A stretch of DNA of 64,000 bases. Origin: Hydrogenobacter thermophilus TK-6. GTDB taxonomy: Bacteria; Aquificota; Aquificia; Aquificales; Aquificaceae. Both the position numbers and the translations under genes were made by a program. Shown here in pieces: positions 2,523 through 13,887 of this stretch; position 1 is the first letter of the stretch; every line of letters begins with the position of its first letter. A model generated the notes under the pieces. That model searched no databases and had not been told where the DNA came from. It saw nothing but the letters and a program-made list of their open reading frames with translations. The stretch spans positions 930,001-994,000 of the forward strand of contig NC_013799.1 in NCBI RefSeq assembly GCF_000010785.1. Reading direction: 5' to 3'.

Positions 2523-4040
2523 ATGAGTTGGAATAGGAGAGATTTATTTAAGTTAGGTATACTTGGTGCTGTGGTTGGAGGTATAGGTAAGTTAGCGACT
2601 GGTACAGCTCAAGCGTTGCCTATTATTGGTGGAGAGCCAACATTCAACGATGTATATAAACAGATAGGCAGATACATATTTCTAGTACCTGGTAAGTTCG
2701 CGGGTTTAGTGGCAGCTTATGATATGTCAACCGGTATGTGTTTAGCTTGGGCAAATATGAGTATATGGGCAGGGAACAGAACGCCTATTGTGCATCACTT
2801 AGCTGCATTTGCGTCACCAGACCCATATAAAGAGTTTGAGTTCGTTGTTAATACTCAGGGAGGTAAAAACCTATACATATACGGTGTGGCGACACCTGTT
2901 AAGGACCCGGACCCAGGTTTTAACATATGGAGGATAAAGTACGATGGTAGTAAAATGGTCCTTTTGGAGGAAGTAGATAAGACTACAGGTTTAGGGTTGG
3001 GTGTCCACGTTACTGCTGCACCTGACAACAAGCACTTCGCTGTAGCGGATGGACAAAAGGACATATTCGCAGTTTTTGAAAAGGGTGAAGGTACAGCACC
3101 TTCCAAGGTAAAGACTGCAGTTTTCTTTGACTGGGAGCCAAATAGCAAGGAACTTTCCAGAGCTTGGCTGGATGGGGGCACTTTAATCATAAAGAAGCTT
3201 CACCCTCCGTATGACTATACGGGAACAAAAGGTAATAAATTGGACTGGGAGCTCGTTCCCGGAGGAGAGCTATTCGCGGAGCAAGGTAAAGTAACCGGTG
3301 CAAGGGTAAGGAATGCATGCGCTTTAGACTCTCTAACTTGGAATCCTACAAAACCTTACGCCGCCGCTGCACTGAGGACTATAGGCTGTGCTGTTATATT
3401 TGACACTAGAACATGGGAGCCAGTAGCTTGCTTGGTAGGTTCTGATAAGTTTGCAAAGCATGGTTACAAGCTACCAATTAAAAAGGTATCTGCAGACGAG
3501 TGGGAAGTTAAGTTTCCTTTTGTACCTACACCGGCACATCAAGCGGGCTTCCATCCCAGCGGAAATTACTTTGTGCTTATGAATAACATAAGAGAAAACT
3601 CAATGCCTGTGTTTGATTGCTCTTCAAGTGACCCTGGTAAGTGGACAAAGATTGCTTCAGTTGGAGATCCTTCTTGGCGTGGTGCTTATCCAAATCCTTT
3701 CCATATGGTATTTACTCCGGACGGTAAAAAGCTGTTCGTTACCCTGTGGTGGCCTGCTCCAACACCCAATGGACTAGCTGCAGTAGATACAGACACATGG
3801 AAGATAGAAAAAACCATAACTATAGGGCCAGACATACATACATTGGCTATTACTTATGATGGAAAACATCTTTTAGGTGTATTTAGCGGGTATCAGAAAA
3901 CCCACAGTGGCATGTATGTGCTAAGGGTGAAAGATTACAAACTTCTTGGCTATCTACCTAGCCCATTGGGGCATCACGACTGTGTGATAGTACCGAGAAC
4001 CACTAAAGACCTTTACGTAAGTAGGTGTACAACTACATAA
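2523..4040 (+). CDS. Tat-exported NosZ-like beta-propeller protein without CuA domain (putative N2O-reductase-type copper enzyme)
   Basis: The 505-residue protein begins with a twin-arginine signal (NRRDLFK then a hydrophobic stretch, cut near TAQA), so a folded, cofactor-bearing protein is exported to the periplasm. The rest looks like a seven-bladed propeller. The histidines H91-H92, H162, H339, H394, H439 and H484 (or H485) have the order and local contexts of the seven CuZ ligands of nitrous-oxide reductase: HH in blade 1, 'AHQAGFHPSGNYF' like NosZ NPHGCNTSSDGKYF, 'NPFHMVFTPDG' like GPLHTTFDGRG, 'DIHTLAITYDGKHL', and 'GHHDCVIVPR' like PHDCIMARR. The C-terminal cupredoxin (CuA) domain is absent: the chain ends 20 residues after the last ligand. 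Function (N2O reduction or other Cu chemistry) is inferred. Selenium-binding/methanethiol-oxidase and lactonase-type propellers are alternatives but fit the motifs less well. Transcription is from a sigma-54 promoter. Confidence 0.68.
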   Translation: MSWNRRDLFKLGILGAVVGGIGKLATGTAQALPIIGGEPTFNDVYKQIGRYIFLVPGKFAGLVAAYDMSTGMCLAWANMSIWAGNRTPIVHHLAAFASPDPYKEFEFVVNTQGGKNLYIYGVATPVKDPDPGFNIWRIKYDGSKMVLLEEVDKTTGLGLGVHVTAAPDNKHFAVADGQKDIFAVFEKGEGTAPSKVKTAVFFDWEPNSKELSRAWLDGGTLIIKKLHPPYDYTGTKGNKLDWELVPGGELFAEQGKVTGARVRNACALDSLTWNPTKPYAAAALRTIGCAVIFDTRTWEPVACLVGSDKFAKHGYKLPIKKVSADEWEVKFPFVPTPAHQAGFHPSGNYFVLMNNIRENSMPVFDCSSSDPGKWTKIASVGDPSWRGAYPNPFHMVFTPDGKKLFVTLWWPAPTPNGLAAVDTDTWKIEKTITIGPDIHTLAITYDGKHLLGVFSGYQKTHSGMYVLRVKDYKLLGYLPSPLGHHDCVIVPRTTKDLYVSRCTTT

Positions 4041-4051
4041 CCCAATTCTGG

Positions 4052-4098
4052 CCTCACTCCTTAGATAGGAGTGGGGTCCCGGTTATATTTTTCTTTTT
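4052..4098 (+). terminator. Hairpin with T-rich tail between the NosZ-like gene and the ABC genes
   Basis: CCTCACTCCT (4052-4061) can pair with AGGAGTGGGG (4067-4076), with one wobble and a TAGAT loop. A T-rich stretch follows at 4083-4098. It may be a partial terminator or a 3'-end stabiliser that keeps the enzyme transcript more abundant than the downstream transporter genes. Confidence 0.5.
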
Positions 4099-4109
4099 GG
4101 AGGTCTCTT

Positions 4110-5318
4110 ATGAGATTATCAGTTTTTGGTATAGCCGTTGAAAACATAAAAGCTCGTAAACTGAGATACGCGATCATTATGATAGGCATTTCCATAGTGA
4201 CGGGTATATTAGTGCTTACTTTCATACTTGGTATAGGTGCTATATATAGTTTGCAGAAAGGATTATCCCGTTTGGGTGCGGACCTTTTGGTCGTACCAAA
4301 GGAATCGCTGGTGAATCTAAAATCCGCTCTCATCACCGGAGAGCCGTCATCTTTTTACCTTGATGATACTTTAGTTACGAGGATTCGCGAGTTACCAGGA
4401 GTAAAGAGAGTAAGTGCACAGGTATTTCTTGTTAGTGCGACTGGGGAGTGCTGTATTCTTGGAAATTCCTTTCTAATAGGATTTAATCCTCAGGATGATT
4501 TTACTGTACTACCATGGGTTAGAGATAAGTTAAGCGAAAAATTCCCGGAAGATGGTGCTATAGTTGGCCATGACACTCCGTGGAAATTAGGTGAGACCAT
4601 CTTCTTTTACAATGTACCCCTTAGGGTTTGGGGAAAACTTGAACGTACAGGAATTGGTATATACGATAATGCTATATTCTTTCACATAAACAAAGCGTAT
4701 GAAATGTCGGATAAATCCCAGACAGGTCCTGTTCCACTTAAACCGATGAGGGGGAAAGTATCAGCCATACTTATACAGCTGGAACCAGGGGCAAAAATAC
4801 CATTCGTGGTATTTTCTATTTTTAAGCTTGATCCTAACGTAAAAGTTGTTACAACCGGCAACATTATTACAGAAGCAAGACAGATACTAACAGGAGTTAT
4901 ATATGGTATTTTTGCTATTGTGCTTGCCTTAATAGTATCAAACATGTTAAATATCAATACGGTTTTTTCCGCAATAGTAAATGAACGGCTTAGAGAAATA
5001 GGCATACTAAGAGCCATAGGAGCTACAAAGTTTGATGTTTTTAAACTCATACTTTACGAATCTATTATAACTTGCTTATTAGGGGGAATTCTGGGTGTTC
5101 TTATGGGATTGATAATGCTTAGGATATTTCAAAGAAGCTGGATATTTTACTTGAAGTTGGTAAATATACCCTTTACTTTACCTCCAATATGGATAATCCT
5201 TTTGATATTTATAGCCATCCTACTTATAACCTTTGTAATAAGCTTATTCGGCGCATATTTACCTGCAAGAAGAGCTTCGGAAGTTCTTCCTTATGATGCT
5301 ATTCGGGAGGTAGCATGA
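4110..5318 (+). CDS. FtsX/MacB-type ABC permease 1 with periplasmic Cys pair
   Basis: 402 residues from the ATG at 4110, chosen because GGAGG lies 7-12 bases upstream (an in-frame ATG at 4071 sits inside the hairpin). One transmembrane helix near residues 18-44 is followed by a periplasmic MacB-like domain and three C-terminal helices, with the 'NERLREIGILRAIGAT' signature of FtsX/LolC/MacB permeases. A vicinal Cys pair (C114-C115, GECCILGN) lies in the periplasmic domain, unusual for the family and suited to metal or thiol chemistry. It directly precedes an ATPase gene. The role in maturation of, or export for, the NosZ-like enzyme is inferred from position. Confidence 0.85.
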   Translation: MRLSVFGIAVENIKARKLRYAIIMIGISIVTGILVLTFILGIGAIYSLQKGLSRLGADLLVVPKESLVNLKSALITGEPSSFYLDDTLVTRIRELPGVKRVSAQVFLVSATGECCILGNSFLIGFNPQDDFTVLPWVRDKLSEKFPEDGAIVGHDTPWKLGETIFFYNVPLRVWGKLERTGIGIYDNAIFFHINKAYEMSDKSQTGPVPLKPMRGKVSAILIQLEPGAKIPFVVFSIFKLDPNVKVVTTGNIITEARQILTGVIYGIFAIVLALIVSNMLNINTVFSAIVNERLREIGILRAIGATKFDVFKLILYESIITCLLGGILGVLMGLIMLRIFQRSWIFYLKLVNIPFTLPPIWIILLIFIAILLITFVISLFGAYLPARRASEVLPYDAIREVA

Positions 5319-6047
5319 ATGTGCTTTATAGAAGTTAAGGACCTTACAAAGATATATAAGTTAGGAAATAGAAACATAGAAGCCTTAAGGGGTGTGAACT
5401 TATGTATAAAAAAAGGAGAATTTGTAAAAATACTAGGATACTCAGGCTCCGGAAAAAGTACGCTCATAAGCATAATAGGAGGTTTGTTAGCTCCAACTAG
5501 CGGTAAAGTTTTTATAGAAGGTATAGATATATGGAGCCTATCAGATAAGGAACTTTCCAAGCTAAGGAACGAGAAAATTGGATTTATATTCCAGAACATG
5601 TCTTTGCTACCCTCTTTGAAGGTTATAGACAATGTTATCAGTCCAGCAATATTTGCATCTAAGAATTCCAAAATAGACATTTATGAAAGAGCTAAGGAAA
5701 TACTAAGCCTGGTAGGTTTGGAAAGCAGGATTCACAGTTACCCAAGCGAGTTATCCGGTGGTGAGCAGAGGAGAGTTTCAATAGCAAGAGCTTTAATAAA
5801 TGATCCGGATATTATCTTGGCAGATGAGCCAACGGGAGAGTTAGATATAAAGACAGAAAGAGATATCATTGAATTATTTAAGTATCTGAATAGAGATTTA
5901 GATAAAACTATTATAGTTGTTACTCACAGCTTAAGATGGTTAAGTGTAGAAGGTATAACTCTAATAATGAAAGATGGTTTGATTTATGATAAAGTAGAAG
6001 ATCCAGAGAAGTTTCTATTGGAAGGAGTTAAACATGAGAATAGTTAG
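5319..6047 (+). CDS. LolD/MacB-type ABC transporter ATPase 1
   Basis: 242 residues with Walker A GYSGSGKST (about residues 45-53), Q-loop, signature LSGGEQRR, Walker B ILADEPTGELD and the switch His in VVTHS. This is the standard ATPase partner of FtsX-like permeases. Its ATG follows the permease stop without a gap, with GGGAGG as ribosome site inside the upstream gene, and its end overlaps the next permease by 14 bases. It should energise permease 1 and/or permease 2. Confidence 0.93.
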   Translation: MCFIEVKDLTKIYKLGNRNIEALRGVNLCIKKGEFVKILGYSGSGKSTLISIIGGLLAPTSGKVFIEGIDIWSLSDKELSKLRNEKIGFIFQNMSLLPSLKVIDNVISPAIFASKNSKIDIYERAKEILSLVGLESRIHSYPSELSGGEQRRVSIARALINDPDIILADEPTGELDIKTERDIIELFKYLNRDLDKTIIVVTHSLRWLSVEGITLIMKDGLIYDKVEDPEKFLLEGVKHENS

Positions 6048-7284
6048 GCTTTCTCTCCTGTTTATTGCGAAAAATTATAAAGTTAATATTCCGTTCATGC
6101 TTATTTTAACTTTCGCACTAAGTGTTTTCTTAGTATCTGTAATATTCAAAGAAGTATCTATAAAATCAGTAATATCGGTATTAGATAGGAGCGGTCATAT
6201 GCTTGTGGTTGTGCCGACCTCCGCTGTGGAAGAAATAGAAAAAACTGGAGATGTTATATTTACAAACAGCTTTATACCAGAAGATAGCTTATCAGCAATA
6301 GCAAGTATATATGACAAAGCAATAGAGGCAGGTTGGAGAAGGAAAGGAGGATTCGTATCACAGCCGGGGATAGGTGAAGGGGGTAAAGCAAAAGAGGTGT
6401 TACAACCACCTACTTGGTCCCCGAGGCTCTATCAATATGCAAAAGTAAAAGGAGAAAAGATGGTGGTAGCTGGAGTAGATTTTAGAAAAGAGTATGAAGT
6501 AAGGTTATGGTGGGATTTGAAGGATGGTATGTGGCCGTTTGATATAGCGGATTCATATGCAGCTCTAATAGGTGAAAATGTACACGAAAAAATGAAGTTG
6601 AACGTTTATGATACTATTACAATAAACAACACACCCTTTAAAGTGTATGGGATTTTAAAAAGAATAGGCACTGAAGATGATAATATGATATTTATTCCCC
6701 TGAAAACTGCGCAAAATATTTTTAATAAAAAAGGATTAGTTTCAATGTTTGCGGTTAGAGCTATGTGTGATTTTTGTCCAGTAGGTGATGCACTTATTCA
6801 GATAAACAAAAGCATAGCGGGCATAAGTGTGCTATCGCAACAAGATATTTCTAAAGCACAATATTATTTTAGGGAAGTTATATACAAATATTTGCAATAC
6901 ATAGGCTTAACTGTAATACTTTTTACTATAACTATGCTGTACTTACTTGCTGGTTGGTATATATCAAGAAATGCAAAAGATTTAGCTCTGCTTAAAGCGT
7001 TTGGAGCTAAATTTTCCGATATGCTAATGTTTATCAGTATAAACATATTATTGCTAACTTTATTAAGTAGTTTACTTGGCTATGCTTTAAGCCTTGCAAT
7101 AGTCTATTCAGTGTGCAGTATTTCTAATATATATTTCCTATACACATTAAATTTATATCACATTCTTCTATCCAACGTAGTAGGTTTAGCTATAAGTTTT
7201 ATAAGTGTGTTTCTACGTTTGCTGAAGTTTTCTAAAATGAGTTTCATAAAGCTATACAACTATGGAGGAACTACCTATGGGTAA
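6034..7284 (+). CDS. FtsX/MacB-type ABC permease 2 with periplasmic CxxC
   Basis: 416 residues. There is an N-terminal helix (about 18-38), a large periplasmic domain with a Trp/Gly/Pro-rich insertion (about 100-170), and C-terminal helices beginning near residue 285. The family signature is weak ('ISRNAKDLALLKAFGAKFSD'). The periplasmic domain contains CDFC (C245, C248), the second cysteine motif in this permease set. It overlaps both neighbours, indicating translational coupling. The substrate is unknown; the cysteines suggest copper or thiol handling but do not prove it. Confidence 0.82.
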   Translation: MRIVRLSLLFIAKNYKVNIPFMLILTFALSVFLVSVIFKEVSIKSVISVLDRSGHMLVVVPTSAVEEIEKTGDVIFTNSFIPEDSLSAIASIYDKAIEAGWRRKGGFVSQPGIGEGGKAKEVLQPPTWSPRLYQYAKVKGEKMVVAGVDFRKEYEVRLWWDLKDGMWPFDIADSYAALIGENVHEKMKLNVYDTITINNTPFKVYGILKRIGTEDDNMIFIPLKTAQNIFNKKGLVSMFAVRAMCDFCPVGDALIQINKSIAGISVLSQQDISKAQYYFREVIYKYLQYIGLTVILFTITMLYLLAGWYISRNAKDLALLKAFGAKFSDMLMFISINILLLTLLSSLLGYALSLAIVYSVCSISNIYFLYTLNLYHILLSNVVGLAISFISVFLRLLKFSKMSFIKLYNYGGTTYG

Positions 7285-8467
7285 GGTTTTTTCCATAGCT
7301 ATTAAGGATATTCTAAACCGTCCTACAACTTTATATGTGTCTTTAGTGATACTTTTAATAATTAACCTTGTAAGTATTACTATAGGTGTATCTTTAAAAG
7401 TAAAGGAATCCACCATTAATACACTTACAAAATTAGGTTATACTTTCTCCGTATATCCTAAAAACTTTACACCAAGTAATGTAGAAGAGATAGGATTCGT
7501 GAAATTAAAAAAGATAAATGATACAACTATTGATTACACAAAAGATGCATTTATACCTAGGGAGAGCGTTGATAAGATATATAACTTAATAAAAAAGTAT
7601 GACAATAACGCACTATTACTACCTAGGCTATATGTAAGGGTAAATGTTTTGTATAAAAGAATACCTTTAAACTTAACTCTAGCTGGTGTGGATTTTAATA
7701 TAGAGAGAAAAGCAAGACCTTTTTTAGGACTTATCGCAGGAAGTTTGCCAGCTAATAAGGAAAATATTCTCATAGGTGCAGCAGTTGCAAAAAAAATCTC
7801 AGTAAATGATAACCTGGTTATTATGGGTAAAACATTCACGGTAAGCGGAATATATGAGTACACCGGCACAATTGATGATTTCCTTGTATTTGTTGATTTA
7901 CATGAACTCCAATCCTTATATAACACATACCAGCTTTCGCTAATAAATGTGAGTAGCTCCAAACTTGATGCTACACCAAACCTATTGAACGAATTAATTT
8001 CGCGCATAGAAAACACGATCCCGAATGTTAAGATAGTAGTACCAAAACAACTGGCAGAGCTAAAAATCAAATTCATTGATAAGATAATACTCATAACAAT
8101 AGTAAGTTGTTTAGTGCTAATACCTTTAGGGATAATATTCCTATATATTTCTGTTTACTTTGATATAAAGGCTAAGGAAAGAACTATAAATGTACTAAGT
8201 ATATTCTGGGGTTATAACAGACACATTGGAACATTTTTACTTATTCAGTATGGTATGATAACCCTTATTTCCATGATACTGGCGCTTTTAACTAGCTATA
8301 TAGGAAAAATTTTGATCACTAAAAATATACTAAACATGGTTATAGTACGGTTAGAGTTTTCAGATTTACAGTTAATTATAGCAGTTGCTGTAATATCCAT
8401 CCTAATAATTGTACTTATCGTTTCGCTTCATTATAAAGCAAAAAAGGAGGTGAAGTTCTATGGCTAA
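7277..8467 (+). CDS. FtsX/MacB-type ABC permease 3
   Basis: 396 residues from the ATG at 7277; GGAGG at 7264-7268 favours this over the ATG at 7262. It has the same plan as permease 2: an N-terminal helix, a periplasmic domain with 'LAGVDFNIERKARPF' parallel to 'VAGVDFRKEYEVRLWW' of permease 2, and C-terminal helices. So permeases 2 and 3 are probably paralogues that form a heterodimer with ATPase 2. It has no periplasmic cysteine pair. The final stretch overlaps the following ATPase gene by eight bases. Confidence 0.82.
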   Translation: MGKVFSIAIKDILNRPTTLYVSLVILLIINLVSITIGVSLKVKESTINTLTKLGYTFSVYPKNFTPSNVEEIGFVKLKKINDTTIDYTKDAFIPRESVDKIYNLIKKYDNNALLLPRLYVRVNVLYKRIPLNLTLAGVDFNIERKARPFLGLIAGSLPANKENILIGAAVAKKISVNDNLVIMGKTFTVSGIYEYTGTIDDFLVFVDLHELQSLYNTYQLSLINVSSSKLDATPNLLNELISRIENTIPNVKIVVPKQLAELKIKFIDKIILITIVSCLVLIPLGIIFLYISVYFDIKAKERTINVLSIFWGYNRHIGTFLLIQYGMITLISMILALLTSYIGKILITKNILNMVIVRLEFSDLQLIIAVAVISILIIVLIVSLHYKAKKEVKFYG

Positions 8468-9149
8468 TGTTATAGTCGAGCTTAAAAATGTATCAAAATC
8501 CTATACTGGTAGTGAACTTATTCCGGTTCTAAAAAGTGTTTATCTCACTGTGGAGTTGGGGAAAATTTATATAATCTTAGGTCCGAGTGGTTCTGGTAAA
8601 ACGACGCTTCTAAACATAATAGGCTTGCTGGATAAACCGTCAGAGGGTGAGGTGTTTTTCGAAGGAGAACGTGTGGATACCTTATCGGAAGATGAATTAG
8701 CTGTGAAAAGAGCTGGTAAGATAAGCTATATTTTCCAAGATATTAGATTAATTCCCACACTATCTGCTATAGACAATATCCTACTGCCTACATATTTCGT
8801 AAAATATAAGATTGATTTCTCTTTTTTAGAGTATCTTTTAAATTCTCTCAATTTAAACAATAAAGTTAAGATGTATCCATCGCAACTTAGTGGGGGACAA
8901 GCTCAAAGAGTTGCAATAATAAGAGCTCTTATTACAAAACCAATGCTACTTCTAGCGGATGAACCCACAGCAAATCTGGACACCAAAAATAAGGACATAG
9001 TGAAGGAGATTCTGTATAATTACTCAAGAGAGAATAACGCTTCCGTGGTACTTGCTACACACGATCAGAGTGTTGTTGATATAGGGGACTATGTTTTATG
9101 CATTTCAGATGGTGTTTTAAAAAGAAACCAGGATTGTTTGAGGTGTTGA
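8460..9149 (+). CDS. LolD/MacB-type ABC transporter ATPase 2
   Basis: 229 residues with Walker A GPSGSGKTT, signature LSGGQAQRV, Walker B LLLADEPTANLD and LATHDQS. A strong AAGGAGGTG site lies inside the preceding permease gene. Two ATPases for three permeases in one operon imply two transporters, or one mixed complex. The arrangement recalls the NosF-NosY part of the nos maturation system, though these permeases belong to the FtsX, not the NosY, superfamily. Confidence 0.92.
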   Translation: MANVIVELKNVSKSYTGSELIPVLKSVYLTVELGKIYIILGPSGSGKTTLLNIIGLLDKPSEGEVFFEGERVDTLSEDELAVKRAGKISYIFQDIRLIPTLSAIDNILLPTYFVKYKIDFSFLEYLLNSLNLNNKVKMYPSQLSGGQAQRVAIIRALITKPMLLLADEPTANLDTKNKDIVKEILYNYSRENNASVVLATHDQSVVDIGDYVLCISDGVLKRNQDCLRC

Positions 9150-9151
9150 GT

Positions 9152-9811
9152 ATGATAGATAGGGTGGAGCGCTTCAGTATAAAGAAAAAATATATTTTAG
9201 GCGCTTTACTAGTAGTAATTATTGCATTCCTGATTGATTATTCAATAGGATTCTGGCAAAGTTATCTTCTAAAGAAGAAAGAGGAGCTAAGAAAAGAGTT
9301 AGAGAATATAGCTTATTTCCAAATATTCCCAGACATAGCGGATATAAATTATAAAGGAGATGGGCATACTTATGTAATCAAGTTTAAAATAGAGAGTATA
9401 TATCCAGATACGGTCTATATAACTAACCCACAGGTTACAGCGTACATACAAACGGGTACAGTTTGGACTGAGCTACCCGTTTACGAGAGTAATATGCAGG
9501 GTCAAAAACAAATATTAGAGTTAAAAAATGGAACATACTACTTTTACAGAGAAGTAGACATAAAACCTTCCATAAAATATACCGAATATCTAATGCCATT
9601 CTACATGCATGTTAAGTTTAATATGATGTTCTTTGTTATGCCTAAAAAATACTTAGATATAAAAGAAAACATATATGAAAATATCACAACAAGATATGTT
9701 GATTTATATACTTACTTAAAACCTTATGGAATTAGCGATGAAGTTATACTTAAAAAACTAAATTTCCCAGATAATAAGGTACCCATTTTTATACCTATGC
9801 CACCACATTAA
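9152..9811 (+). CDS. Membrane-anchored periplasmic protein of unknown family
   Basis: 219 residues from the ATG at 9152, two bases after the ATPase stop; an earlier ATG at 9098 would overlap the ATPase. A single N-terminal helix (about residues 14-36) is followed by a short coiled segment (KKKEELRKELENI) and a beta-rich periplasmic domain with no cysteine and few histidines. I do not recognise the family. Like MacA or other adaptor proteins it could link the transporter to periplasmic clients, but no adaptor signature is visible. Confidence 0.75.
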   Translation: MIDRVERFSIKKKYILGALLVVIIAFLIDYSIGFWQSYLLKKKEELRKELENIAYFQIFPDIADINYKGDGHTYVIKFKIESIYPDTVYITNPQVTAYIQTGTVWTELPVYESNMQGQKQILELKNGTYYFYREVDIKPSIKYTEYLMPFYMHVKFNMMFFVMPKKYLDIKENIYENITTRYVDLYTYLKPYGISDEVILKKLNFPDNKVPIFIPMPPH

Positions 9812-9821
9812 GGAGGTTAGC

Positions 9822-10370
9822 ATGTTTATTGTTATGACTTTGTTAGTATGGTTAGGGTTAGGTTGTGCACATGAGGTAGCAGCCAATGTCTCCCCTTATT
9901 CTTATATGGTGAAGTATCCTTGGATAGTTAAAATACATCCCCCTATAGTGCACTACGCGATCAGCGTACCTATTATAAGTTTGGCTTTTGAACTATATTA
10001 CATATTAAGAAAAAGATCTAACAATACTTTAGCTATAATCTTGCATGTACTTAGTATATTAGTTATTACTGTGGCTGTTTTAACCGGTTATGTAGTACAT
10101 AAAGCTATATCAGCTATACCAGTATATGTTGAAGCTATGCATATCCTCCATATACACCAAAGAATCGGTTTTTACATATTAGCTATGTCTTATGCATGGC
10201 TATTTCTTATTATCATATATGCACTCAAGCCATATAAATATCTAAAAATTTTTTCTATTATCCTATTAATACTTATTTGCTGTTTCGTGTTTTATCAAAG
10301 TTATTTAGGTGGTATTATGGTTTACGATTATGGTTTAGGAGTAAATATAGAAAATCAAGACTGGAGGTAA
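9822..10370 (+). CDS. DUF2231 membrane protein, putative b-type cytochrome
   Basis: 182 residues, ribosome site AAGGAGG, with an N-terminal signal-like segment and about four transmembrane helices. The pattern 'KIHPPIVHYAIS' (H39, H44), 'LTGYVVHKA' (H93), 'HILHIHQRIG' (H107, H110, H112) and the final 'YLGGIMVYDYGLGV' are features of DUF2231 proteins, where the histidines probably bind haem. In this operon it is a candidate quinol-linked electron donor for the exported enzyme. That role is inferred. Confidence 0.78.
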   Translation: MFIVMTLLVWLGLGCAHEVAANVSPYSYMVKYPWIVKIHPPIVHYAISVPIISLAFELYYILRKRSNNTLAIILHVLSILVITVAVLTGYVVHKAISAIPVYVEAMHILHIHQRIGFYILAMSYAWLFLIIIYALKPYKYLKIFSIILLILICCFVFYQSYLGGIMVYDYGLGVNIENQDWR

Positions 10371-10375
10371 CACCG

Positions 10376-10786
10376 ATGTGTCGTTTTAAGGTTTTATTCA
10401 TATTTCTATTTGGAATTTTAGCATTATCAAGCACATCAACAGCTGAATATATAGCTAAATCTATATCAGAATATAAGGTTTATACAGGCAGGTTAGTTTT
10501 TGCCTCCAAGCCAAAAGTTGGAAAGAATTCAGCTCTTTTATATATCTTCTACACCAAAAGCAATAATCCTATTAATAAAAAGCTCAATCTTGAGGTAGTG
10601 CCTTGGATGACTGAGCATGAACATGGTTCTACTGAAATACCAAAGGTAAGTTTAGGAATGAAAGCGGGTGAATATAAGATAACATCTTTAACATTTACTA
10701 TGCCAGGCAAGTGGCAAATTTATGTAAAAGTAAAAGATAATAATTTTGAAGATACTTTGGTATTTGATGTAAATGTGGCAAAATGA
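10376..10786 (+). CDS. YtkA/FixH-like periplasmic protein
   Basis: 136 residues from the ATG at 10376 (GGAGG upstream; the longer frame from 10277 overlaps the DUF2231 gene). A signal peptide (about 1-23) precedes one immunoglobulin-like domain ending 'LTFTMPGKWQIYVKVKD', the YtkA signature. W77, M78, H81, H83 and M94 form a Met/His cluster of the kind that binds copper in related periplasmic proteins. It could deliver copper to the NosZ-like enzyme. No CuA-type CxxxC motif exists, so it does not replace the missing CuA domain. Confidence 0.75.
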   Translation: MCRFKVLFIFLFGILALSSTSTAEYIAKSISEYKVYTGRLVFASKPKVGKNSALLYIFYTKSNNPINKKLNLEVVPWMTEHEHGSTEIPKVSLGMKAGEYKITSLTFTMPGKWQIYVKVKDNNFEDTLVFDVNVAK

Positions 10787-12252
10787 GAAAGCCAATAACT
10801 GTTCTATTGTTTATTATATTTATTACCACAATTCCGTTTATGTTTCCTAGGAATTTTGTATATAAAAATATTTTCTTACATGCATTTATTGAAATACTAT
10901 CTGGAGTTTTAAGTATACTATTCGGTTCTTTTATAGCAATACATTACAAAAAATATGCCAAATTATGGCTTTTAGATGTTATCAGTGTACCTTTCATAGC
11001 GTTAGGAATTTCTGAAATTCTACATGCTTTTACTACTAATGTGCAATTTTTCATATGGACTAGAGTTTTAGGAAACTCCTTAAATATTTTGCTAATCTTT
11101 TTATATATGATTGCTTATAAATTTCTAAATGCAACTCTAATTCAAAAGCTTCCAATTAAGCTTTCAGTGATACTGATTTCTGTAATTTCTTTGGCAACTA
11201 GCCCCATATTTTTACCGCACCCTTTAGAAACTTATGTTGAGGACATAGATATAATAAGAAACGGTGTAGGTTTTTCTATATATACCAAAATCATAAATAC
11301 TTTCAACGGAGTAATATATTATGCAATATCACTGTTCCTAATTCAAGATTATCTAAGAAACAGAGAATACTTATATACCCCCTTCATTATAAGTTTTTTT
11401 CTTTTTGCAAGTAGCTGCTTTCTTTTCCCTGAATCTAAGCTATGGAATTTGCAGTGGTGGTATTGGCACATTATAAGGTTGTTAGCTCACATAATAATAT
11501 TAATATTTGCGTTTAGATTTTATAATCTGATCGTGGATAAAGTGATTGAACAGAAGACTATGTTAATAGAAATACAAGAAAAACTTTTGAACATGCATAA
11601 ATACGGTATAACTGAAAGTTTAAATGCACTATATTCACATAATATAAAAAATAAATTAAGCATACTAAAAAACCACATAGAGATACTGAAAAACTTCTAT
11701 ATTTTTGATAAGGAAGCACTCGAATTAGTAAATTTGATGGAAATAGAATTAGATAAAATTCATAAAACGTTAATCGATAGTAGACCGAAAATTAATAACA
11801 CATACGAGAATTTATATGATCTAATAAGTAATATAGTTAAAGAATTAACAATAATTACGATAGATAAAGCTATTCACTTAAATTGGTTTATAGATAAGCA
11901 ACTAGATAAGGTGATAGTTCCTAAGTTTTTAATAGAAACTGCTTTGTGGAATATAATTATAAACAGTTTAGAAGCATTAGCTAATACGGAAAAACCGGAT
12001 AGAATTATTAAGCTATCCGGAGAGATTTCAGGACAAACTAAAGAAGCTATTATTATAGTGGAAGATAATGCAGAAGGCTTACCAACCACAATTAAGGAAG
12101 AGATTTTCAAGCCTTTCCAAACGTCAAAACCTGGAGGATGGGGCCTGGGCCTAAGTTTTGCTAAATTTGCGGCTACTGTATTAGGAGGAAGTCTAGATAT
12201 TATAGGAGAAGAAGGTAAAGGAACGAGGGTTATACTTAAATTACCGACCTAG
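10783..12252 (+). CDS. Membrane histidine kinase of the cluster
   Basis: 489 residues, ATGA overlap with the YtkA-like gene. The N-terminal half has seven or eight transmembrane helices resembling a MASE3-type sensor ('HAFIEILSGVLSILFG', 'GISEILHAF'). The cytoplasmic half has an atypical H-box (YSHNIKNKLS, about residue 286), N-box IIINSLEAL, a G1 motif with Ala for Gly (EDNAEGLP), an F-box-like KPFQTSK and the G2 loop GGWGLGLSFA. The convergent NtrC-type regulator is the likely partner. Membrane-embedded histidines could sense a gas, redox state or metal, which is speculation. Confidence 0.88.
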   Translation: MRKPITVLLFIIFITTIPFMFPRNFVYKNIFLHAFIEILSGVLSILFGSFIAIHYKKYAKLWLLDVISVPFIALGISEILHAFTTNVQFFIWTRVLGNSLNILLIFLYMIAYKFLNATLIQKLPIKLSVILISVISLATSPIFLPHPLETYVEDIDIIRNGVGFSIYTKIINTFNGVIYYAISLFLIQDYLRNREYLYTPFIISFFLFASSCFLFPESKLWNLQWWYWHIIRLLAHIIILIFAFRFYNLIVDKVIEQKTMLIEIQEKLLNMHKYGITESLNALYSHNIKNKLSILKNHIEILKNFYIFDKEALELVNLMEIELDKIHKTLIDSRPKINNTYENLYDLISNIVKELTIITIDKAIHLNWFIDKQLDKVIVPKFLIETALWNIIINSLEALANTEKPDRIIKLSGEISGQTKEAIIIVEDNAEGLPTTIKEEIFKPFQTSKPGGWGLGLSFAKFAATVLGGSLDIIGEEGKGTRVILKLPT

Positions 12253-12564: not shown

Positions 12565-13866
12565 TCATTTCCCGTTGATAATTCTGTATATAGTTTGCCT
12601 GCTAATGCCTAACTCCTTCGCTGTTTTTGTTATATTATAATTAAATCGTTCCAAAGTCTTTAGTATGTAATATTTATTAAACTCCTTTAATTTTTTAAAT
12701 CCTAAATTATCGGTTTTTACTTCATTATTCCTAATGTAATCTGGTAGATCCATAAGAGTAAGATACACACGTTCACTTTTTGCAACAGAATAAAATATAA
12801 TGTTTTTAAGCTCCCTTATGTTTCCGGGATAATCGTGGTTAAGTAGAACTTCCATTACATCGTCAGATATATAACAAGGAATATCCTTAGAGAATTCTTT
12901 CTTAGCTTCTTCCATAAACTTATACGATAATGGAACTATCATATCTTTCAATTCCCTTAGCGGAGGTAGATGTATATGTATGACATTTATCCTATAAAAC
13001 AAGTCTTTACGTATCCTTTCTTTTAGCTGGTCACGGTCAATATTTGTGGCAGTTATTAACCTAAAATCAACTATCTTTTCTTGTATATCTCCAATACGTC
13101 TCATTCTTCTATTCTCTAAAACATCTAACAATTTTGCCTGCATATTGCCAGGTAGGCACTCAATCTCATCAATAAATAAAGTACCGTTATGCGCAAGTTC
13201 GATCATACCTGCTTTTTCATAGATCGCGCCTGTAAAAGCACCTTTTTTAAAACCAAAAAGCTCCGCTTCAAATAAACCATCAGGAATAGTGCTGGCTTCA
13301 ATGTGAACAAAATTGTAATCTTTTCTATTGGACATTTTATGTACATATTTAGCTAGAAATGTTTTACCTACACCAGTTTCCCCAGTTAGTAGTAGGGGTA
13401 AATTATACTGTGTGGCAATACACAACTTATCCTGTATATCTTTTTTATACATATAAATCTCATCTAAACTATTGGTGTTTTTTTGTTTACATGACAAGTA
13501 ATGTAAAGCTTTATTAATCTTAAGTATTAAATCATTAATGTCAAAAGGCTTAGAAATAAAATCAAATATTCCAGATTTTATTGAGTTTACAGCGTCCTCA
13601 AAACTACCATAAGCAGTGATAACAATGATAGGAATATCTGAATTCTTTAACATTATTTTTTTACTTAGTTCGAGCCCATTTTCGTTATTCAGCTTTAAAT
13701 CCATAAGTATAACATCTATGTGTTCTTTACTTAATAAATTTAGAGCTGAAAATGAGTTACAGGCTGTGAAAACTTTAAAACCTTTTTTCTCAAATAGATA
13801 TTTTAATGAGTTTAGGAAAGCTTGCTCGTCATCTATTATTAATATACTAGGGATAGCGGCTCTCAT
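12565..13866 (-). CDS. NtrC-family sigma-54-dependent response regulator
   Basis: 433 residues in three parts: a receiver domain (about 8-122; ILIIDDEQAF, phosphoryl Asp in VILMDLKL, SKPFD), an AAA+ domain (Walker A GETGVGKT, GAFTGA loop for contacting sigma-54, Walker B GTLFIDEIE) and a Fis-type helix-turn-helix at the C-terminus (NITKTAKELGISRQTIYRII). The start at 13866 is preferred over 13887 because TATATT at 13874-13879 predicts a transcript start one base before that ATG. It should activate the sigma-54 promoter at 2472 in response to the kinase encoded beside it. Confidence 0.92.
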   Translation of the reverse strand: MRAAIPSILIIDDEQAFLNSLKYLFEKKGFKVFTACNSFSALNLLSKEHIDVILMDLKLNNENGLELSKKIMLKNSDIPIIVITAYGSFEDAVNSIKSGIFDFISKPFDINDLILKINKALHYLSCKQKNTNSLDEIYMYKKDIQDKLCIATQYNLPLLLTGETGVGKTFLAKYVHKMSNRKDYNFVHIEASTIPDGLFEAELFGFKKGAFTGAIYEKAGMIELAHNGTLFIDEIECLPGNMQAKLLDVLENRRMRRIGDIQEKIVDFRLITATNIDRDQLKERIRKDLFYRINVIHIHLPPLRELKDMIVPLSYKFMEEAKKEFSKDIPCYISDDVMEVLLNHDYPGNIRELKNIIFYSVAKSERVYLTLMDLPDYIRNNEVKTDNLGFKKLKEFNKYYILKTLERFNYNITKTAKELGISRQTIYRIINGK

Positions 13867-13873
13867 GATTTTA

Positions 13874-13879
13874 AATATA
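13874..13879 (-). promoter_or_regulatory. -10 box of the NtrC-type regulator, leaderless
   Basis: TATATT on the minus strand ends seven bases before the ATG at 13866. No Shine-Dalgarno site is seen before either possible start. Confidence 0.4.
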
Positions 13880-13887
13880 TAGCCCAT

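Follow-up and report, generated by a model that had tools for sequence, protein, structure and literature searches.

A thiocyanate dehydrogenase homologue with its own FtsX/MacB-type ABC gene set in Hydrogenobacter thermophilus, and a predicted role of the set in copper delivery

Hydrogenobacter thermophilus is a heat-loving, hydrogen-oxidising bacterium. Bases 930001-994000 of the single-contig genome (1,743,135 bp) of strain TK-6, a stretch of 64,000 nucleotides referred to here as the window, were analysed with a focus on a group of ATP-binding cassette (ABC) genes and the enzyme gene preceding them. From position 2523 to 12252 a single strand carries, almost without gaps, genes for a thiocyanate dehydrogenase (TcDH) homologue, permease P1, ATPase A1, permeases P2 and P3, ATPase A2, an anchored protein, a DUF2231 protein, a YtkA-like protein and a histidine kinase. 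The features are as follows, in window coordinates; L-numbers in the text denote compared loci.

2472-2487, + strand: sigma-54 promoter-like element TGGCACAAAGTTTGCA, 5' of the TcDH gene (match search and shuffles)
2523-4040, + strand: TcDH homologue with the twin-arginine translocation (Tat) signal NRRDLFKLG (phmmer and active-site residues)
4050-4078 (with the wider limits 4050-4098 also in use), + strand: 12-bp stem-loop with a T-rich run behind it in the TcDH-P1 gap (z = -2.94)
4110-5318, + strand: P1, FtsX/MacB-type permease with the [CH]C motif (Pfam, alignment, fold match)
4449-4454, + strand: codons of P1 Cys114-Cys115 (alignment of 11 P1 proteins)
5319-6047, + strand: A1, LolD-like ATPase; Walker A, signature and Walker B motifs all intact (Pfam ABC_tran)
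6034-7284, + strand: P2, FtsX/MacB-type permease with MCxxCPVG (Pfam, alignment, fold match)
6766-6777, + strand: codons of P2 Cys245-x-x-Cys248 (10/10 TcDH-linked P2 proteins)
7262-8467, + strand: P3, additional permease, a P2 duplicate without CxxC (alignment and tree)
8460-9149, + strand: A2, second LolD-like ATPase, motifs intact (Pfam ABC_tran)
9152-9811, + strand: membrane-anchored periplasmic protein of no Pfam family, with YMH and a C-terminal MPPH (alignment across TcDH loci)
9822-10370, + strand: DUF2231 membrane protein (Pfam; paralogue elsewhere in the genome)
10376-10786, + strand: YtkA-like periplasmic protein (PF13115, E=6.9e-17)
10783-12252, + strand: sensor histidine kinase of the cluster (homologues at other TcDH loci)
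12565-13887, - strand: sigma-54-dependent response regulator with GAFTGA (homologues of 259-295 bits at other TcDH loci)

The gene 5' of the ABC set is a TcDH homologue. It matched the solved TcDH-family chain 8q9x over its full length (phmmer, 628.8 bits, E=7.5e-188) and the Thioalkalivibrio paradoxus chain 5f75 with 549.6 bits (E about 1e-163 to 5f75/5oex). All 13 active-site residues of 5F75, as described in PMC6504805, were found in its product; thiocyanate oxidation is a predicted activity. The original prediction had called this gene NosZ-like; NosZ identity (clades I and II and the lactonase type) was ruled out, as no Pfam family was assigned and the L-NosZ score was 14.6 bits against a cut-off of 700. 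The open reading frame opens at 2493, and the start at 2523 was considered likelier because of the ribosome-binding site AAAGGAGG and because the promoter lies too near 2493.

A true nosZ gene with nos_propeller repeats is located elsewhere in the same genome (about 168.4-170.3 kb), in a classical operon of nosZ, NosL, NosD, NosF and NosY(-like) genes at about 164.7-170.3 kb (L047). The absence of NosDFY and NosL was correctly noted for the TcDH locus, where no NosD, NosF or NosY homologue was found in the operon, but it does not extend to the genome as a whole, and the proposal that the ABC set replaces NosDFY had to be abandoned. NosL is the copper chaperone for the CuZ site (PMC6530538). 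The likeness to the NosDFY and NosL system of CuZ assembly consists in an ABC machine and periplasmic factors adjoining a beta-propeller copper enzyme; the permeases, however, are of the FtsX/MacB class here and of the NosY class there, and neither NosD nor NosL is encoded at the TcDH locus.

The gene calls at 4110-9149 bear out a tight operon of three permeases and two ATPases, with neighbouring ABC genes contiguous or sharing 8-23 nt. P1 and P2 were assigned both MacB_PCD and FtsX by Pfam, with MacB_PCD between transmembrane helices TM1 and TM2 and FtsX at the C-terminus, as in the MacB/FtsX superfamily. In P3, MacB_PCD exceeded the cut-off and FtsX was slightly below it. The nearest folds of the permeases were MacB, LolE and LolC.

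P1 contains cysteines C114, C115 and C322, and P2 contains C245, C248 and C361. In the predicted models, C114-C115 of P1 and C245/C248 of P2 lie between TM1 and TM2, which places them in the periplasmic domains (residues about 51-250 of P1 and about 54-269 of P2), as had been proposed. The models are of moderate confidence (predicted local distance difference test values of 77.5 for P1 and 75.6 for P2, from ten-row alignments).

The anticipated conservation of these residues was observed. C115 of P1 was invariant in 11/11 sequences. Position 114 was C or H in all 11: the window and three Nitrospirota loci have C there, the seven proteobacterial loci H. The MCxxCPVG motif of P2 was identical in 10/10 sequences. 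Cysteine conservation was far more than expected by chance. Exchanges of C for H are typically seen among metal ligands, and one at this position would break a disulfide or persulfide pair. MCxxC is similar to the motifs of Cu(I) chaperones, and metal binding by the ABC set is predicted from these sequence features.

The gene order was examined at ten further TcDH loci from a genome scan, nine of which extend beyond P1. At all nine (L002-L010), TcDH, P1, A1, P2, A2 and the anchored protein or proteins follow each other in this order, a recurrence that spans Nitrospirota and proteobacteria, and three more loci (L042, L043, L073) share the TcDH-ABC order. The P1-A1-P2-A2 set lies directly 3' of TcDH here as well, with P3 inserted between P2 and A2. 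At L072, A2 was removed by the overlap filter of the gene caller. The P2 gene of L043 (Nitrospirota, 10569-11783) is interrupted by a TAG stop, reflecting either decay or a sequencing error.

Co-occurrence was determined in two sets of genomes, 296 from Nitrospirota and 300 from the order to which a Sulfuritalea belongs. TcDH-type P2 (494-713 bits) was present in seven genomes and never without TcDH (7/7), in agreement with the earlier proposal of a set devoted to one periplasmic copper enzyme of the beta-propeller type; other P2-like proteins in the sample scored at most 274 bits. Neither of the two outcomes named beforehand as refuting that proposal, wide occurrence of the ABC genes without the enzyme gene or lack of cysteine conservation, was thus observed. 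Close TcDH (at least 798 bits) was detected in eight genomes, in the eighth on a contig ending after P1.

These data also bear on whether the set might perform ordinary LolCDE/MacB-like export of lipoproteins or peptides, or envelope signalling, with the cysteines being structural. The nearest folds, the order of permease domains and the LolD-like ATPases are all shared with LolCDE and MacB. The strict P2-TcDH linkage and the conserved, single-motif cysteines do not agree with such a role, nor do the scores, which fell far below the NCBIfam cut-offs for LolC/E and LolD (39.5 vs 362 for P1; 230.5 and 182.6 vs 307.75 for A1 and A2); no gene for a lipoprotein substrate is present in the operon. 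The set differs further from LolCDE/MacB in its two ATPases, its conserved [CH]C and CxxC motifs and in the separate ATPase, which is fused in MacB. Ordinary export is therefore regarded as very improbable.

P3 carries no CxxC and was found only here and in L002 and L003. P2 and P3 of this lineage formed one group in the tree (100/99 support), and P3 is therefore a duplicate of P2. A three-permease machine as the basic form was rejected, P3 being a local duplicate.

A clade of TcDH homologues in which Gln replaces the copper-site residue His482 (the Q482 clade) comprises 18 of the 20 positives of a 239-genome family sample, a plasmid copy of Methylocella tundrae and L041. Its loci (L041, L062, L078 and L098-L114) belong mostly to the family that includes Methylocella tundrae, and the same H to Q difference separates PDB chain 8yu5 from 8q9x in printed alignments. 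Ordinary TcDH function would appear unlikely for members of this clade. Except at L041, which has no P1, these loci retained P1, A1 and the anchored protein and were missing P2 and A2. The [CH]C motif was gone, in both residues, from 19/19 P1 genes examined in this clade, by substitution or deletion. Counting these cases as independent support was rejected, since all belong to one clade. As for plasmid-borne TcDH in general, just the divergent Methylocella copy was found.

Thioalkalivibrio species are soda-lake bacteria in which a related cluster has been described. In ten Thioalkalivibrio strains, TcDH precedes genes for four ABC subunits, along with hypothetical genes and a two-component system of the sigma-54 type; copper acquisition was suggested for this cluster, and H. 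thermophilus was named as the source of one of the two nearest homologues besides these (Berben 2017, PMC5328954). On thiocyanate, the log2 change was 7.47 for TcDH and lay at 4.54-6.75 across the ABC genes (PMC5744179). The association of TcDH with ABC genes and the general idea of a copper-related ABC system are thus already published for Thioalkalivibrio, and according to the same papers the assembly of the trinuclear copper site is still to be determined (PMC5328954, PMC5744179). The conserved cysteine motifs, P3 duplication, sister modules, Q482 covariation, recurrence of the operon in Nitrospirota and proteobacteria, and P2-TcDH linkage were not found in the cited papers and are new here.

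Both clusters share the order TcDH-permease-ATPase-permease-ATPase, the anchored hypothetical protein(s), the histidine kinase and the sigma-54 regulator (L009 is T. thiocyanoxidans). The present locus departs from that of Thioalkalivibrio in four ways: it has a third permease, it carries YtkA-like and DUF2231 genes where the other has copCD/tatA/fccAB, its P1 motif reads CC rather than HC, and its regulator lies on the opposite strand.

An importer delivering copper to the cytoplasm, as guessed in the Thioalkalivibrio papers, would be consistent with induction of the cluster on thiocyanate and the need for copper (PMC5328954, PMC5744179). The motifs, however, are located in the periplasmic domain. 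MacB/LolCE-type machines also have no known import channel, and import is considered extremely improbable.

Related permeases were also found apart from TcDH. In the same Nitrospirota, nine CC-bearing P1-like permeases were examined, often accompanied by a LolD-like ATPase; the three P1 groups (TcDH-linked, Q482 clade and sister genes) separated in the tree. Most of these sister genes follow a gene for a beta-propeller-like protein whose C-terminus bears CxxCH (L053, L056-L059), and L060 combines an ATPase with such a propeller. The beta-propeller-like CxxCH proteins of Nitrospirota are located at:

L053, 6203-7339
L056, 6732-7862
L057, 9587-10831
L058, 211-1452
L059, 7451-8611
L060, 2450-3604

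Identity of this propeller with a known enzyme was rejected, as no PDB relative was found for the L057 protein, the one tested. These proteins, with their C-terminal CxxCH heme site, are perhaps an undescribed family of periplasmic enzymes with its own loading machine.

A sister P1 and ATPase adjoin NosL at L054 (PF05573, 30.5 bits, cut-off 24) and DUF2318/FtrD at L056. Eight CxxCP-bearing P2-like permeases were also examined; they occur with an ATPase and often adjoin DUF2318. On the Pelobacter propionicus plasmid pPRO1 (L051, 7030-9839), genes for an HMA protein, a DUF2318 protein, a CxxC FtsX permease and an ATPase lie within a copper/heavy-metal resistance island that also carries a heavy-metal P-type ATPase (CopA) and a CusA-type pump.

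Distant P2 relatives in the tree include permeases of the FetABCDEF system with P19/FTR1 (C. jejuni, uropathogenic E. coli), a periplasmic metal system in which a LolD-like ATPase likewise serves along with FtsX permeases, two in number. By analogy with Campylobacter FetBCD and FetA/E/F, the ABC set could act as a thiol or electron relay that supplies periplasmic reducing equivalents and keeps Cu(I) or thiols reduced. The link of DUF2318 proteins to the sister permeases agrees with this, and reducing power is invoked in the FetABCDEF model (PMC10783030). In contrast, the TcDH operon encodes no DUF2318 (no PF10080 match among its proteins), P19, FTR1 or thioredoxin, and no CxxC was found at the P2 position in FetB/FetC of the E. 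coli plasmid cluster. A relay is thus considered improbable.

MacB and LolCDE work by mechanotransmission, in which ATP-driven closure on the cytoplasmic side shifts the periplasmic domains. It is fairly probable that the TcDH-linked set is a mechanotransmitter of the MacB/LolCE type that supplies TcDH with Cu(I) on the periplasmic side, although we infer the pairing of the subunits, the copper cargo and the direction and order of transfer. P1 and P2 with A1 and A2 (and P3 as a lineage-specific P2 duplicate) would form a heteromeric machine, and ATP hydrolysis by A1/A2 would drive the motion of the P1 and P2 periplasmic domains. Cu(I) would be held by MCxxC in P2, [CH]C in P1 and Met/His motifs in the anchored protein. 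The CxxC site would pass it on to [CH]C and the anchored protein, from which it would enter the tunnel of TcDH. The Tat-exported enzyme would thereby have its copper site filled in the periplasm.

Copper was preferred as the cargo because the partner is a copper enzyme (copper is required by TcDH; PMC5744179), because of the C/H exchange at position 114 and the copper-linked sister modules, and because of the joint loss in the Q482 clade, all of which are indirect. The main rival is sulfur handling, in which the permease thiols would take up or move the zero-valent sulfur of TcDH as persulfide or polysulfide, and the machine would clear or export it. TcDH does produce S0 (PMC9456337). CxxC motifs, like vicinal cysteines, are able to carry sulfane sulfur. 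The histidine at position 114 in seven proteobacterial loci, however, would break a persulfide pair, and sister modules adjoin NosL and copper efflux genes. Copper or sulfur, as originally predicted, was the right pair of hypotheses; the evidence favours copper, and sulfur handling appears unlikely.

Several observations weigh against copper delivery by the set. The pair of sister P1 genes at L052 lies near Sulf_transp/YedE and DsrE genes, which fits sulfur. The link between Q482 and the loss of the cysteines represents one tree branch and one joint change, and is suggestive only. No CopC/CopD was found at the TcDH locus, and to our knowledge MacB-type machines are not known as copper carriers. 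Distant H482-type TcDH homologues at L071, L115 and L116 have no such ABC genes nearby on their contigs, and the published distant-type homologues of Thiohalobacter and Guyparkeria are likewise without the set; for distant-type TcDH (L071, Thiohalobacter, Guyparkeria) the set is therefore not always needed.

More tentatively, and with the odds somewhat against it, the TcDH set may belong, as a single branch, to a broader and so far undescribed class of copper-loading machines of the FtsX/MacB type with [CH]C and CxxCP motifs, each with its own periplasmic enzyme, such as TcDH or the propeller-heme c proteins of Nitrospirota, and with the motifs vanishing along with H482Q. Such a class would add another way of assembling copper sites to those of NosDFY/NosL and Sco/PCuAC. 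If the cysteines carry copper, a mechanical ABC class familiar from the export of lipoproteins and drugs would also act as a metallochaperone, with defined residues to mutate, and partner proteins would be suggested for expressing such enzymes in other hosts.

Among 136 Aquificota genomes, full-length TcDH was found in this one only. The H. thermophilus TcDH clustered with Nitrospirota at 100/100 in the tree, and the G+C content of the operon is 28-37%, compared with mostly 40-50% in the surroundings. These three observations together indicate horizontal transfer, by which H. thermophilus has apparently acquired TcDH with its own ABC machine. A cyanase gene is present in the same genome (1019113-1019319), which fits cyanate as the expected TcDH product. 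This Aquificota thermophile becomes a candidate thiocyanate oxidiser with a cyanase.

The sigma-54 site at 2472-2487 matched TGGCACRNNNNTTGCW exactly and was the sole site with at most one mismatch in the 64 kb. Its match quality was reached by 0/200 shuffles of the region upstream of TcDH. A site shared with other TcDH loci was rejected: the match was perfect only here, had one mismatch at L007 and L043, and was mostly at chance level elsewhere. The stability of the strong stem-loop between TcDH and P1 was equalled in 2/200 shuffles; together with the T-rich run it resembles an attenuator or terminator, which would fit an excess of enzyme over transporter.

In the anchored protein, YMH was conserved across the TcDH loci and the C-terminal MPPH was present in one copy per locus; both are possible copper ligands. 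The YtkA-like gene is also present in TcDH loci L002, L003 and L043. The paralogue of the DUF2231 protein (108 bits) adjoins genes for a second NosL-like protein, a small Met-rich protein and a metal P-type ATPase, which make up a copper locus (L046, 7162-10625).

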